In this document: positions 2,840 through 7,060 of the stretch, in pieces
Layout of the letters: each line of letters begins with the position of its first letter
How positions within the stretch are numbered: the stretch's first letter is position 1
Position numbers and translations under genes: made by a program
The notes under the pieces: model-generated
Databases searched by the model: none
Told to the model about the DNA's origin: nothing
Seen by the model: only the letters and a program-made list of their open reading frames with translations
DNA from: a virus
Length of the DNA: 25,609 bases
Virus record (IMG/VR): IMGVR_UViG_3300034112_000767
Span: 1 to 25,609 of that record
Strand: one strand, 5' to 3'

Positions 2840-3063
2840 CTGCGACCTCCGTTGTATTCGTACATGGCCGACACCGCGAACACGGCGCTTGAGATAAACA
2901 ACGCAAGCAGCACGACTGCTTCCCACAGTTCTTGAGCGAAGTAGGCAATGGCTAGTCCATCTAGAATCGCAAGTGTCGCAAATGCCCAGAGGTAGGGCAG
3001 TGCTTTGTTTGAGTTGTCAGGTTCAAGTTTCATATATGACTGGTAGTGTTTTACTTTATTCAT
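2836..3063 (-). CDS. Two-span small membrane protein
   Basis: A 75-residue protein. Residues about 22-44 (ALPYLWAFATLAILDGLAIA) and 49-68 (WEAVVLLALFISSAVFAVSA) form two hydrophobic spans with a short acidic loop, ending in MYEYNGGRR. The start at 3063 (MNKVKHYQ) overlaps the end of the helicase C-half at AATGAATAA; MKLEP at 3033 is the alternative. There is no SD. Function unknown. The overlap suggests translation by reinitiation after the helicase half. Confidence 0.68.
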   Translation of the reverse strand: MNKVKHYQSYMKLEPDNSNKALPYLWAFATLAILDGLAIAYFAQELWEAVVLLALFISSAVFAVSAMYEYNGGRR

Positions 3064-3640
3064 TGTGGAATGTTGCTGTTTTGCCGTGGAAACGCAGGTT
3101 TGCACTGACGCCACACGGGCCGTTTCGTTGGATGGGTATGCCAATCTCGCGAAACTCTGCGTCGTCGGACAGCTTCACAACCATCACGGCTGTAGCATCT
3201 TGTCCGATTGCACGGCTTTCACGAGCTTTACCCTGCTCATTTAGTTGCGTAATGCTGATCACAAGGCAACCCAATTCGATGCCAAGTAGGCGCAGACTCC
3301 GGCTAACCTCAGCCACCTCACGCTCGCGGCTAGAGTCCTTCCCAAGGTCGCATCGCACGAGTTGGATGTAGTCTACGAACAGTACACCGAGGCCGTCCGG
3401 CGACTTGGCCATAGCCCGTGCCGTGGCGCATATGTTGGCGATATCGTACAGATCGTCGCGGATCACCAGACGGCTGTTGTTGAGCTTCTGGATGGCATTG
3501 TGGACGCCCCGGATGTCGCGCTCGTGCTTGGCCCCCTCAGCGAGGGTACGCAGGCTGACGCTGCCTAGCCTGGCAACGAGCCGGTCGATGATCTGGTTAG
3601 CTGGCATCTCGAGCGAGATGACGAGGATTCCTTTGTTCAT
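3056..3640 (-). CDS. dnaB: DnaB-type replicative helicase, C-terminal half (split gene)
   Basis: A 194-residue protein that begins MNKGILVISLEM, exactly at the second RecA-fold strand of DnaB (the SLEM motif), and carries the rest of the motor. Walker B is VLFVD ending at residue 90, the DNA-contact/sensor segment is VISITQLNE (Gln 132), and the arginine-finger block is QRNGPCG (Arg 172). It lacks Walker A and the N-terminal domain, which are encoded 2.7 kb upstream at 6350-7060. The first 44 bases overlap the methyltransferase 3' end. The two halves together give about 430 residues, normal for DnaB. No intein sequence precedes the start. The active motor is probably formed by non-covalent assembly of the halves. 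Confidence 0.9.
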   Translation of the reverse strand: MNKGILVISLEMPANQIIDRLVARLGSVSLRTLAEGAKHERDIRGVHNAIQKLNNSRLVIRDDLYDIANICATARAMAKSPDGLGVLFVDYIQLVRCDLGKDSSREREVAEVSRSLRLLGIELGCLVISITQLNEQGKARESRAIGQDATAVMVVKLSDDAEFREIGIPIQRNGPCGVSANLRFHGKTATFHNE

Positions 3641-4397
3641 TTAGTAGTGTGGTAAAAGCTAAGGCTGCTGTGGCTGGGACGACTCCGTTTCCGAGGAGGC
3701 GCATCCTGTCCACCCAATCGGCACCCCCATCATCCATTCGCACCAGGATGGGTTCAGTCGTCCAGTCTGACCAGTCCGTTCCTGTGCTACTGCATCCAGA
3801 TAAAACTTGTTGACTCGATAAGTGTGACTCTTGCTCCCAAGTGGACCACAGCCCTTGTACTCGCTTGCTCTGATTGTGGGCCAAGATAAACACTCGCTTG
3901 CGTTGGTGAGGCGCACCGCATTCAGACGCGCTGAATATGCCCCACGACACCGCGTAACCCAGCTCTTCCAGATCGCTAATGACGCTGGAGAGTCCCAACG
4001 AGACGTGCCCTTCGACGTTCTCAAAGAAGCAGACTCGGGGGCGAAGAAGTCGAATGCCGTCTGCGATGTAGGGCCACAAGTGCCTTGGGTCGTCTTTGCC
4101 TGCTCGTTTTCCTGCTGCGCTGAAGGGCTGGCAGGGGTAGCCTCCAGAGAGGATGTCCACCTTTCCAGAAAACTCTGCCCAAGGGAAGGACTTGAGATCG
4201 CTCCATATCGGAGCCGCATCAAGTTGCCCGCCTTCCATTCGCGCAAGTAGGCACTCGATTGCGAAGGCTTCGATCTCCGCATAAGCGACCGTGCGCAAGC
4301 TCTGGCACACTCTACGGAGTCCGAGGTCAATGCCTCCGTATCCTGAACAAAGGCTAATATGAGTTGTTTTGGCAGTATCCACATTAGCGCAATCCAT
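3597..4397 (-). CDS. DNA (cytosine-5) methyltransferase
   Basis: A 266-residue protein with the C5-methyltransferase motifs in order: motif I LCSGYGGIDLGL (residues 16-27, SAM binding), motif IV GGYPCQPFSAAG with catalytic Cys 89, motif VI FENVEG (125-130), motif VIII QRKRVFIL (165-172), and motif X GNGVVPATA (236-244). The stretch between VIII and X is only about 60 residues, so the target-recognition domain is very short. No partner restriction enzyme is adjacent, so it is probably an orphan that protects phage DNA from host restriction. It sits between the two helicase halves. Its last 15 codons run into the helicase C-half reading frame, probably a non-homologous tail. Confidence 0.93.
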   Translation of the reverse strand: MDCANVDTAKTTHISLCSGYGGIDLGLRRVCQSLRTVAYAEIEAFAIECLLARMEGGQLDAAPIWSDLKSFPWAEFSGKVDILSGGYPCQPFSAAGKRAGKDDPRHLWPYIADGIRLLRPRVCFFENVEGHVSLGLSSVISDLEELGYAVSWGIFSASECGAPHQRKRVFILAHNQSKRVQGLWSTWEQESHLSSQQVLSGCSSTGTDWSDWTTEPILVRMDDGGADWVDRMRLLGNGVVPATAALAFTTLLNEQRNPRHLARDAS

Positions 4398-4626
4398 TCA
4401 TAGGCCTTGCCGAGGTGTGTGAGTGCTGCCCGGTGTACGGTTCCAGCACATATTTTACCTCGATGAGATCCGTCGATTGATTCTCTGGCAGCAGCATGAG
4501 CGCCTCCATCTTCGAGCCTAGTGCGTCTTTTGCGCCGATCGCAACGATGTCCTGCGTCTTCTTGGGGCGCGGCAGCTCCACGTTTTGCAGCACGTTAGTG
4601 CGTCGGATGAGTACCCAGTCGCTCAT
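4384..4626 (-). CDS. Hypothetical protein, 80 residues
   Basis: I do not recognise this protein. It starts MSDWVLIRRTNVLQNVELP at 4626, overlapping the upstream stop as ATGA (4623-4626), with GGAGG seven bases upstream. The middle is mixed alpha/beta (TQDIVAIGAKDALGSKMEALM), then DLIEVKYVLEPYTG, and a His/Ser-rich tail. It overlaps the methyltransferase start by 14 bases. It is one of six genes lying between the split helicase halves. Confidence 0.72.
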   Translation of the reverse strand: MSDWVLIRRTNVLQNVELPRPKKTQDIVAIGAKDALGSKMEALMLLPENQSTDLIEVKYVLEPYTGQHSHTSARPMNGLR

Positions 4627-4916
4627 GGTTGTGCCTCCTTCCACTTGCCTAATGTCCGCAGAAACGCCTTTGCCTTTTCTCGCGCAGTAGCATGGCAAGC
4701 GTCTTGCATGAAGCTAGCTAAGTGCATTAAGTAGATCCTCCACTGCTGCATGTTCAACACTTTCTCAGCCAGATGCATGGCATTAAGATCGTTTGCCCAA
4801 TCCCACAATTCGTCGCAAGTGCAGTCAATGCCGTTGGCCGTCCACACATAGACGCCGTCTTCCTTGCGCCAGCCCATAGCTTCAGCCATAGCCGCATTAA
4901 TCTCGTCGTCGCTCAT
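4623..4916 (-). CDS. Phage ABA-sandwich domain protein (paralogue 2)
   Basis: A 97-residue protein starting MSDDEINAAMAEAMGW. It shares NDLNAMHLAE and the ending ATAREKAKAFLRTLGKW with the protein at 960-1337, so the two are paralogues within one phage. The start at 4916 overlaps the upstream stop as ATGA (4913-4916), with GGGAGG seven bases before it; a GTG two codons upstream is the alternative. This copy has a Cys pair in the middle (DCTCDELWDW) not seen in paralogue 1. Function of the family is unknown. It lies between the helicase halves. Confidence 0.82.
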   Translation of the reverse strand: MSDDEINAAMAEAMGWRKEDGVYVWTANGIDCTCDELWDWANDLNAMHLAEKVLNMQQWRIYLMHLASFMQDACHATAREKAKAFLRTLGKWKEAQP

Positions 4917-5257
4917 GACCACACCTCCCAGTCGTTAGCCAGAATGTCTTCAATGCTAAGCTCAAATGGAGCATGGTTTTTCTCGTATTTTTCAAAATCC
5001 TCCCAGCACTTTCGCCGCACAAATCTAGCTCTGCCTTCTGATAACTCAGTGATTGGGTATATAATTCTGCATCCACTGGTTTTTAAAATTGGATGTGGCG
5101 ACATTCCCTCCCAGTCATCTTCGATTAAATCACTGCCGCTCATTGAAGTGTTACCTCCTGATTTTGAAAAACACTGCCCCTCTCTCCAGCTTTTGCGCCG
5201 CACATTCCAGCCGTCGGCCAGCTTGTCTAGCAGTTCGTTTCGTGGTATGTCTTGCAT
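4913..5257 (-). CDS. Tandem two-module Tad2-like (DUF2829-type) protein
   Basis: A 114-residue protein with two short modules of one plan. Module 1 (about residues 1-52) has LADGWNVRRKSWREG then SGSDLIEDDWEG. Module 2 (about 60-114) has LSEGRARFVRRKCWED then LSIEDILANDWEVW. The 'xVRRKxW ... DLIxxDWE' pattern fits DUF2829/Tad2-like proteins, whose studied members bind a Thoeris signalling nucleotide. A tandem fusion could supply, in one chain, the dimer that single-module members form (inference). The start at 5257 has GGAGGA eight bases upstream and lies just after the nuclease stop; the longer open frame is a shadow of that gene. Confidence 0.62.
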   Translation of the reverse strand: MQDIPRNELLDKLADGWNVRRKSWREGQCFSKSGGNTSMSGSDLIEDDWEGMSPHPILKTSGCRIIYPITELSEGRARFVRRKCWEDFEKYEKNHAPFELSIEDILANDWEVWS

Positions 5258-5258
5258 A

Positions 5259-6038
5259 TTATGCTTCCTCCCATCTTCTTGGCAGCATGACGCGCATCGT
5301 TGGTGGACCGGGCCATACATCTTGGTCGAGGCAGAGCTTGTACTGCGACAGAGTCACGTCCAACTGGTCATTGGCCAAATCAATCAACTCGGTTGACGCC
5401 TTCACCCACTGGCTCAAGTGAGGTGCCTGCATGTCCACGACGAGGAAGTAGAAGTCAATGTCCTCTTGACCGGTGATCCGCTCCAGACCGTAGGTGTACC
5501 AAGCAGCTTGCTTGTCGTAGCCAAAGCCAAAGAACTTATGGTCGAATTTAGACCAGTCACTGGTCGTCTTTAAGTCCACGATCGCCGGACGACCCTTAAT
5601 TTCAGTGATCATGTCAGGCCTGCCTTTGCACTGAATACCGTCGCGCTCCCAGAACATGGACGCTTCGATGATCTTAGCTGCCGTGACCATCTGGAGCAAT
5701 GGCTCCACAGCTGCACAGGCACCTTCAACACGCGCCCCTTCGTCCTCGTTAAGGATGACTTTACCAAGGTTCTCTTGGCAAAAGTTCTCCCACGTCAGCT
5801 TCCCCTCTTTGGTGCGCCGATCGCACGCTGGAGCGATAGCGTACTCACAACGGCCCTCAAGAGCGAGGCTGTGGACAAGCGTGCCAAGCTCCATCTCACG
5901 AGACGGCTTCCACTCCTGTGACTCCTTCCACTTGTAGTAGCTTGGACAAACTGCAAAAGCGTCCAGGCTGTGTTTCGATAAACCGTGAGTTCCACGGTAC
6001 TTTGTCATTTCCCAATCGTAGTGTATTTCGTTTTTCAT
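5259..6038 (-). CDS. RecB/RecE-like PD-(D/E)XK nuclease
   Basis: A 259-residue protein with the RecB-family nuclease motifs: GTLVHSLAL (His 56), CKGRPDMI (Asp 142), AIVDLKTT (Asp 155-x-Lys 157) and the QxxxY motif KQAAWY (Gln 177, Tyr 181). This is the layout of phage 5'-3' exonucleases related to the RecE C-terminal domain and other PDDEXK_1 proteins. In phages they resect double-stranded ends for recombination or replication. No RecT/Erf-type annealing protein is visible in the window. The start at 6038 follows the upstream stop by four bases; the longer frame into the preceding gene is a shadow. It lies between the two helicase halves. Confidence 0.88.
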   Translation of the reverse strand: MKNEIHYDWEMTKYRGTHGLSKHSLDAFAVCPSYYKWKESQEWKPSREMELGTLVHSLALEGRCEYAIAPACDRRTKEGKLTWENFCQENLGKVILNEDEGARVEGACAAVEPLLQMVTAAKIIEASMFWERDGIQCKGRPDMITEIKGRPAIVDLKTTSDWSKFDHKFFGFGYDKQAAWYTYGLERITGQEDIDFYFLVVDMQAPHLSQWVKASTELIDLANDQLDVTLSQYKLCLDQDVWPGPPTMRVMLPRRWEEA

Positions 6039-6042
6039 TTTG

Positions 6043-6357
6043 TTATGGGTTGATTTCAAGCGCACCGCAGCCAACGATTCTGCCAGCTCCGTCGCGAATG
6101 AGTTTTGTTGGACTCGCCAAATCTTTCCTGTGCGGAAGTGCAGTTCGCACATAGCCCGGCACAATGTAAAGTACACCTTTAATTGGATCAGGCAGATTGC
6201 TCACACGAGCGTCCTTGCAGCACATGATGGGTACACCATCGACGTCGTCCACCTTAGACAAGTGCGAGTGTACTTTGACTGAGTTTCCGCTAGGCTCCAC
6301 GATGCCATATCCTGTAATGACTATGTCGTGAGGAGTGAGGTTTATAAGCTTATTCAT
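6043..6357 (-). CDS. Small conserved LTPHD-type protein, function unknown
   Basis: A 104-residue protein starting MNKLINLTPHDIVI. Small proteins opening with INLTPH and continuing with PSG, DGVPI, GVLYIV and RKDLxxP...RDGxGRIVGC are widespread in phages and bacteria without a known function; all those blocks are visible here. The start overlaps the end of the helicase N-half as AATGAATAA, so it probably depends on reinitiation. It is the first of the six genes separating the helicase halves. Mostly beta-strand in character, likely soluble. Confidence 0.8.
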   Translation of the reverse strand: MNKLINLTPHDIVITGYGIVEPSGNSVKVHSHLSKVDDVDGVPIMCCKDARVSNLPDPIKGVLYIVPGYVRTALPHRKDLASPTKLIRDGAGRIVGCGALEINP

Positions 6358-7060
6358 TTATTAGATTTGCGATTATATTGAGCGCCAGCATCGTCTTGCC
6401 TGACTTGGTTTCACCACCGATGACTACGAAGTCTCCGTACCTGATAGGACATATGTTGTCGATAGCAGAATAGCCAGTCTTAATTCGCATCGACTCGTCA
6501 TCTCCTGTCTCATAGCGGTTAAGTGCGTTGAGCAAGAGGGCCTTAGTGTCCATCACCTTGGGAGGCGCAAGCTCTCTGGACAGTCCCTCGACCTTCATCA
6601 CCACATCACTGAGTAGCTCCGGCGTCTGCACGGTCGTGTCAGCGATTGCCATAAGCGTCTCGTAAGCCACATGCTGCAAGGTGCGCCGCTTGGCCGTGGA
6701 CTTGACTATCTCGATGAGGTCACCAATAGCCGACGCAATCGGCATAAGCGTGTAGAGCTCGCTCAGTTCGTGGAATTGCACCTGAGGCAGTGTCTCGCGT
6801 ACTTTCTCAAATACGACACGGATCTCCGAGCTGGCGTTGCGGCTCTGCTGCTGCAAGATGATCTCGCATACCCTATGACTGAGCGGATCGAAAATGTCCG
6901 CCACCTTGAAGTTCTTCTCCGAGATGTGATGCAAGAACACCTCGGGGTGGTTCAGCGCAATTGACGCTATACCACGTTCAGCCTCGCTCGCGGTTGGCAC
7001 CACCGTGTCAGGTGGCAACTCTACAGGCTTACGCCTACCAGCTTTCTTGGGTGCTTCCAT
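6350..7060 (-). CDS. dnaB: DnaB-type replicative helicase, N-terminal half (split gene)
   Basis: A 236-residue protein. Residues about 20-110 match the helical DnaB N-terminal domain (SEAERGIASIALNHPEVF...). Residues about 110-190 form the linker. Residues 195-236 begin the RecA motor (TGYSAIDN, then Walker A GGETKSGKT with Lys 222 and Thr 223), ending LALNIIANLINE. A normal DnaB continues with the SLEM strand; here a TAA stop intervenes, and that continuation is found at 3056-3640. Walker B, sensor and arginine finger are all missing from this chain, so it cannot hydrolyse ATP alone. It lies downstream of the loader-like gene, overlapping it by 26 bases. Confidence 0.9.
   Translation of the reverse strand: MEAPKKAGRRKPVELPPDTVVPTASEAERGIASIALNHPEVFLHHISEKNFKVADIFDPLSHRVCEIILQQQSRNASSEIRVVFEKVRETLPQVQFHELSELYTLMPIASAIGDLIEIVKSTAKRRTLQHVAYETLMAIADTTVQTPELLSDVVMKVEGLSRELAPPKVMDTKALLLNALNRYETGDDESMRIKTGYSAIDNICPIRYGDFVVIGGETKSGKTMLALNIIANLINE

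Follow-up and report, generated by a model that had tools for sequence, protein, structure and literature searches.

Can the helicase that drives a replication fork be encoded by two separate genes and still work as one enzyme? DnaB rings are the textbook case of a single-chain hexamer, and the question is raised here by the IMG/VR phage record IMGVR_UViG_3300034112_000767, a contig of 25,609 bp (the window) which is itself a fragment of a genome. Its DnaB-type helicase is encoded as two open reading frames (ORFs), both on the minus strand: an N-half at 6350-7060 (236 amino acids, aa) and a C-half at 3056-3640 (194 aa), separated by an interval of 2,709 bp (3641-6349, minus strand) which carries six ORFs. 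A preliminary interpretation made without database searches (the sequence-only reading) had reported this arrangement, and both halves and the six intervening ORFs were found as it described them. We consider it very probable, judging from comparative sequence evidence, that the two chains are translated separately and assemble non-covalently into a DnaB-like helicase ring, and that the gene was cut once, in the ancestor of the clade.

The two products divide one protein between them. The N-half comprises the DnaB N-terminal helical domain, the linker helix and the start of the RecA fold with Walker A (GGETKSGKT, residues 215-223) and the next helix, and its C-terminal end reads ..ANLINE. The C-half begins MNKGILVISLEM, with the catalytic glutamate at E11, and continues through Walker B (VLFVDYIQL, D90), TQLN, RES and the arginine finger (QRNGP, R172). 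Both match PHROG_19, the DnaB-like replicative helicase family, the N-half at profile positions 154-377 (E=8e-16) and the C-half at 381-580 (E=6e-35), while on Pfam DnaB_C the N-half covers positions 2-44 and the C-half positions 49-255 (E=1e-31). Profiles built from relatives align to the solved DnaB structure PDB 2r6a at residues 11-229 for the N-half and 233-437 for the C-half; the two are thus complementary on 2r6a, which places the cut in the loop that connects the P-loop helix to the strand ending in the catalytic SLEM. Between the halves no part of DnaB is missing or duplicated. Two further claims of the sequence-only reading are borne out by this: the cut lies between Walker A and the following strand, as the coverage of the halves abuts on PHROG_19, DnaB_C and 2r6a alike, and the joined halves read as one uninterrupted DnaB, aligned flush.

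The arrangement is not peculiar to one contig. Searches of viral contigs seeded with each half returned largely the same contigs, and removal of redundancy left 68 distinct pairs of N- and C-half in IMG/VR (69 distinct segments from N-half to C-half). In every one of the 68 pairs the N-half precedes the C-half on the same strand, with the same cut and a gap of 1,323-3,785 bp, and no fused gene was found among these pairs or the fetched loci. Divergence within the clade reaches 61% for the N-halves and 36% for the C-halves. Wherever a C-half of the clade has at least 4.2 kb of upstream sequence, an N-half is present there, the only exceptions to this rule being four distant intact bacterial DnaBs. 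The RecA core, rather than lying on a single polypeptide, is cut after the P-loop helix in 68/68 pairs, and all the catalytic motifs of DnaB-type SF4 helicases are retained, spread over two chains, in 27 diverse members: Walker A, the SLEM glutamate, the Walker B aspartate and the arginine of the arginine finger are invariant.

Since the window contig is a fragment, the lack of an intact dnaB is judged from its relatives, 24 of which are near-complete (37-44 kb, as judged by the length of records that give no completeness figure). All 24 have exactly two DnaB_C matches, from profile position 2 to ~48 and from ~45 to 255, and a search with the DnaB_C profile found an intact dnaB in none of them. 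An intact close relative was also sought with a DNA pattern, K[ST]GKT followed by SLEMP at a set spacing, in 2.9 million viral contigs; it gave 12 stretches, a single one of which held the motif in an open frame, in a weakly related sequence, the pattern being blind to AGY serine codons in SLEMP. A scan of GTDB returned one split member, in a contig of a metagenome-assembled genome (MAG; L295, JAFMIZ010000069.1), and four distant bacterial DnaBs at 31-34%. Among GenBank phages, the nearest match to the C-half reaches 36%. That match (CAKLQH020000004.1, L325), labelled 'Acinetobacter phage MD-2021a', lies in the bacterial gene order rpsR-rplI-dnaB-alr, and the contig looks like host chromosome. 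The MAG which holds the split member is named Pedosphaera sp., which is either a possible hint of the host or a binning error.

Every member of the clade is known from metagenome assembly, and an assembly artefact or a decayed pseudogene might in principle mimic a split gene; we regard this as next to impossible. The arrangement recurs in many independent assemblies and in the GTDB contig, the reading frames are open throughout and dN/dS is ~0.04-0.05. Median dN/dS (Nei-Gojobori) is 0.052 for the N-half and 0.039 for the C-half, values that denote strong purifying selection on both. Within the N-half, constraint is tightest on residues 190-236, the part with Walker A, where dN/dS falls to 0.022. 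The distances of N- and C-halves correlate at r=0.98, as expected of linked genes, and this value is not used as evidence of interaction.

The ends of the two genes indicate how they are expressed. The ATG of the C-half never varies, although unrelated sequences of several types precede it, and a stop codon stands immediately 5' of it in the window as in many other members. In nearly all members, the C-terminal ends of the N-halves (ANLL, ANLIA, ANLISE, ANLINE) differ only within the loop. Conserved ORFs, a conserved start preceded by unrelated sequences and purifying selection together indicate that the halves are translated independently. In one subclade (L146, L148 and L220) the N-half carries an extra C-terminal tail of ~20-25 residues, which overlaps the next gene in another frame.

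The halves could nonetheless be rejoined covalently by a split intein. Phage genes of this type, the 'fractured genes' of environmental phages, gp41-type helicases included, are said to have been described by Dassa and colleagues in 2009, and they resemble the present case in that the halves of a phage helicase are encoded apart. Inteins are also found among these phages: one lies in the terminase of a sister phage (G006), and G004, G007 and G008 each gave intein matches. Fractured-gene halves, however, carry split inteins and are ligated, whereas the dnaB halves carry none: in nearly all members the N-half ends no more than a few residues from the DnaB helix and the C-half begins at the next strand, and such flush ends leave no room for intein fragments. 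Even in the subclade with the extended N-half the extension is short and the partner C-half starts at the strand. An intein-splicing model run on the 24 genomes gave no match at either dnaB half, while it was positive elsewhere in 4/24, well away from the halves, which serves as a positive control. Covalent rejoining by a split intein is accordingly exceedingly improbable.

A second way of restoring a single chain would be to remove the interval at the RNA or DNA level, by an intron, trans-splicing or programmed excision, or to bypass it in translation. The sole support for this is the contiguity of the joined protein, and we hold it to be very improbable. No Rfam intron was found in the window or in five relatives; the interval ranges from 1.3 to 3.8 kb, its genes differ among members, and it contains conserved genes of its own; and the start of the C-half is preceded by unrelated sequences. 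Sequence shared by the two ends of the junction is not longer than expected by chance. The stretch TAAATGAA is shared by both junction ends in the window, but the frames differ, and no frame-restoring repeat was found at the junction. None of the findings which the sequence-only reading had named as fatal to its proposal turned up: no complete dnaB lies elsewhere in the 24 near-complete relatives, an assembly artefact is contradicted by 68 distinct pairs of the same arrangement, the flush ends and the silence of the intein model at the halves in 24 genomes speak against intein sequence, and splicing of the interval lacks support given the absence of an Rfam intron, the variable interval and the unrelated sequences 5' of the C-half.

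It might also be that the halves have separate roles and never form one enzyme, the N-half binding, for example, host DnaB or primase and the C-half acting as a core-only ATPase. DnaB N-domains fold alone, relatives of DnaB reduced to the RecA core are described in mycobacteriophages (PMC4523182), and some canonical residues are gone from the C-half. Yet the C-half has no Walker A and the N-half no Walker B, although both motifs are invariant; within the N-half, selection is strictest on the Walker A segment; no member has a single half where the contig is long enough; and the 24 near-complete genomes hold no further DnaB_C gene. On balance, separate roles are improbable.

The best structural matches (Foldseek) of the models of both halves are DnaB. 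In the AlphaFold2 model of the N-half, the N-domain and linker are confident and confidence is low from about residue 160, the Walker A part included; the model matches the N-domain of Mycobacterium tuberculosis DnaB with a TM-score of ~0.8 of the target and a root-mean-square deviation (rmsd) of ~2.7. In that of the C-half, confidence is high over the first 90 residues and mostly low in the last third. The low confidence falls mainly on RecA parts which would need the other half, and this may fit two incomplete pieces of one fold, a point to which we give little weight. When aligned with nine intact DnaBs, the split proteins cluster together, apart from the intact ones, with 100/100 support.

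Several observations weigh against the two-chain reading. The alignment behind the models is shallow (27 sequences), and the low confidence may stem in part from its depth. A Shine-Dalgarno-like motif precedes the C-half start in only 8/68 members. Finally, a DNA-contact loop of ~13 aa before the RES motif of the C-half, present in the nine intact DnaBs, is gone in the split members compared, and the lysine two residues before the arginine finger, K in all nine, is replaced in them by I, Y or F; with these losses, the biochemistry of the C-half may differ from that of canonical DnaB.

Since every catalytic motif has been kept on its own chain under strong constraint, we infer that a functional hexamer of 12 polypeptides is the best reading of the locus. 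In such a scheme, a dnaB (SF4) gene would have been cut a single time, in an ancestor shared by the 37-44-kb phages of this large clade, at the loop that joins the P-loop helix to the following RecA-fold strand; its halves are now separate genes of one early operon. Their products would pair without a covalent link to make up a whole RecA fold, with the N-domain collar, the linker and Walker A coming from the N-half, and the catalytic glutamate, Walker B, the DNA-contacting motif and the trans-acting arginine finger from the C-half. Six N+C pairs would then build a two-tier ring able to unwind the phage fork. The sequence-only reading had built each ATPase site from two chains; this count falls short by one once the trans arginine finger is included, as the site would combine Walker A of one N-half, the glutamate and Walker B of its C-half, and the arginine finger of a neighbouring C-half. 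DNA polymerase A and Toprim_2 primase had no match in these genomes, so the helicase probably works with the primase and polymerase of the host. As to loaders, no DciA and no above-threshold DnaC/IstB-type protein was found in the 24 genomes, three of which gave weak sub-threshold IstB matches. It is conceivable, though doubtful, that the split has been put to use, the ring forming on single-stranded DNA as C-halves, made separately, join an N-half collar; chain assembly, and not a ring-opening loader, would then control loading or activation.

Intact counterparts of the enzyme occur in other phages. The helicases of phage C75C1 (OQ984151) and of P1 (Ban) belong to the same enzyme family as the split one but are encoded by single intact genes, with ~29-34% identity to the split halves. 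C75C1, which gave the top GenBank match for the G006 capsid protein and shares its major capsid protein family, encodes its DnaB intact, at 441 aa, along with an exonuclease in the same early module, a layout which is in line with an intact ancestor.

How the cut arose may be considered in the light of the genes between the halves. Next to the N-half, at 6043-6357 (minus strand, as are all six), lies a PHROG_30542-like ORF of 104 aa, with no function assigned, whose ATG overlaps the N-half stop codon. It is followed by a RecE/exonuclease VIII-like nuclease (DUF3799, PD-(D/E)XK) at 5259-6041, identified by family matches. These two genes are both present in 70/70 distinct intervals, the remaining content being variable among relatives: methyltransferase (in a minority of them), deoxynucleotide kinase and small ORFs, within interval lengths of 1,323-3,785 bp. 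In the window, the others are a 114-aa ORF at 4913-5257 with a weak match to Tad2 (Thoeris anti-defence 2-like) over its last 21 residues, the Pfam score of which is barely over the cut-off; a 99-aa ORF at 4623-4922 and an 80-aa ORF at 4384-4626 (..LPRPKKTQD..), neither with a family match, the latter resembling small ORFs which recur in relatives; and a C5-cytosine DNA methyltransferase at 3597-4397, the 3' end of which overlaps the C-half start by 44 nucleotides. A 241-aa open frame at 3659-4384, in another frame than the methyltransferase gene it overlaps, is probably due to chance. Family searches gave no homing endonuclease match among the window's six ORFs, and HNH_3 matches in the genomes of the 24 relatives include none between the dnaB halves, other classes of homing endonuclease not having been searched in all intervals. 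Two origins of the cut would fit: a mobile gene may once have inserted there and since disappeared, or a cassette of the PHROG_30542-like ORF and the exonuclease may have been inserted.

Split phage enzymes which reassemble are already established, and an intein-free split of a replicative helicase is a variant not found in the literature searched. Among the closest known cases is the 'genes-in-pieces' ribonucleotide reductase of Aeromonas phage Aeh1, a replication-related enzyme encoded by two genes, the products of which (NrdA-a and NrdA-b) reassemble into a functional enzyme without an intein (PMC2988022). The Aeh1 nrdA gene is cut by the mobE homing endonuclease, whereas none was seen between the dnaB halves of the window; and unlike in NrdA, the dnaB cut is fixed across a clade and lies in the ATPase core of a ring motor. 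Other phage replisome enzymes in pieces are the gene 43 polymerase of phages 25 and 44RR, whose products 43A and 43B purify together and are active as a polymerase, and the large subunit of T4 topoisomerase (PMC2988022). The pieces of these genes are parted by untranslated sequence or a homing endonuclease, whereas conserved phage genes, in a set that varies, lie between the dnaB halves. The searched literature, mostly outside subscription journals, gave no natural example of a replicative DnaB divided within the ATPase core and free of inteins.

If the two-chain assembly is correct, the DnaB motor need not be a single chain: it can be put together from two, with no protein splicing, even when the RecA core is divided between the Walker A and Walker B motifs. 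Such an enzyme would offer a natural two-part system for testing ring closure on DNA, as well as a split-protein scaffold for controlled helicases. Caution is due in annotation, as gene callers and marker-gene surveys will list two partial DnaBs in these phages. In a short Lake Erie contig (viral contig group 6, PMC10343443), 'DnaB', a 'T4 gp41' helicase and a hypothetical protein are reported, which might be a split helicase of the same kind read as two genes.

Apart from the helicase, in the sister phage G006 the large terminase (L300:1432-4092, plus strand) is interrupted at Walker A by an intein (GGNR|C..HKN|SGKT). G004 and G007 have intein matches without the HNH that accompanies it in G006: there an HNH_3 endonuclease ORF (L300:1808-2521, minus strand) lies antisense within the intein-coding DNA, an unusual nesting, and the same overlap occurs in G008.
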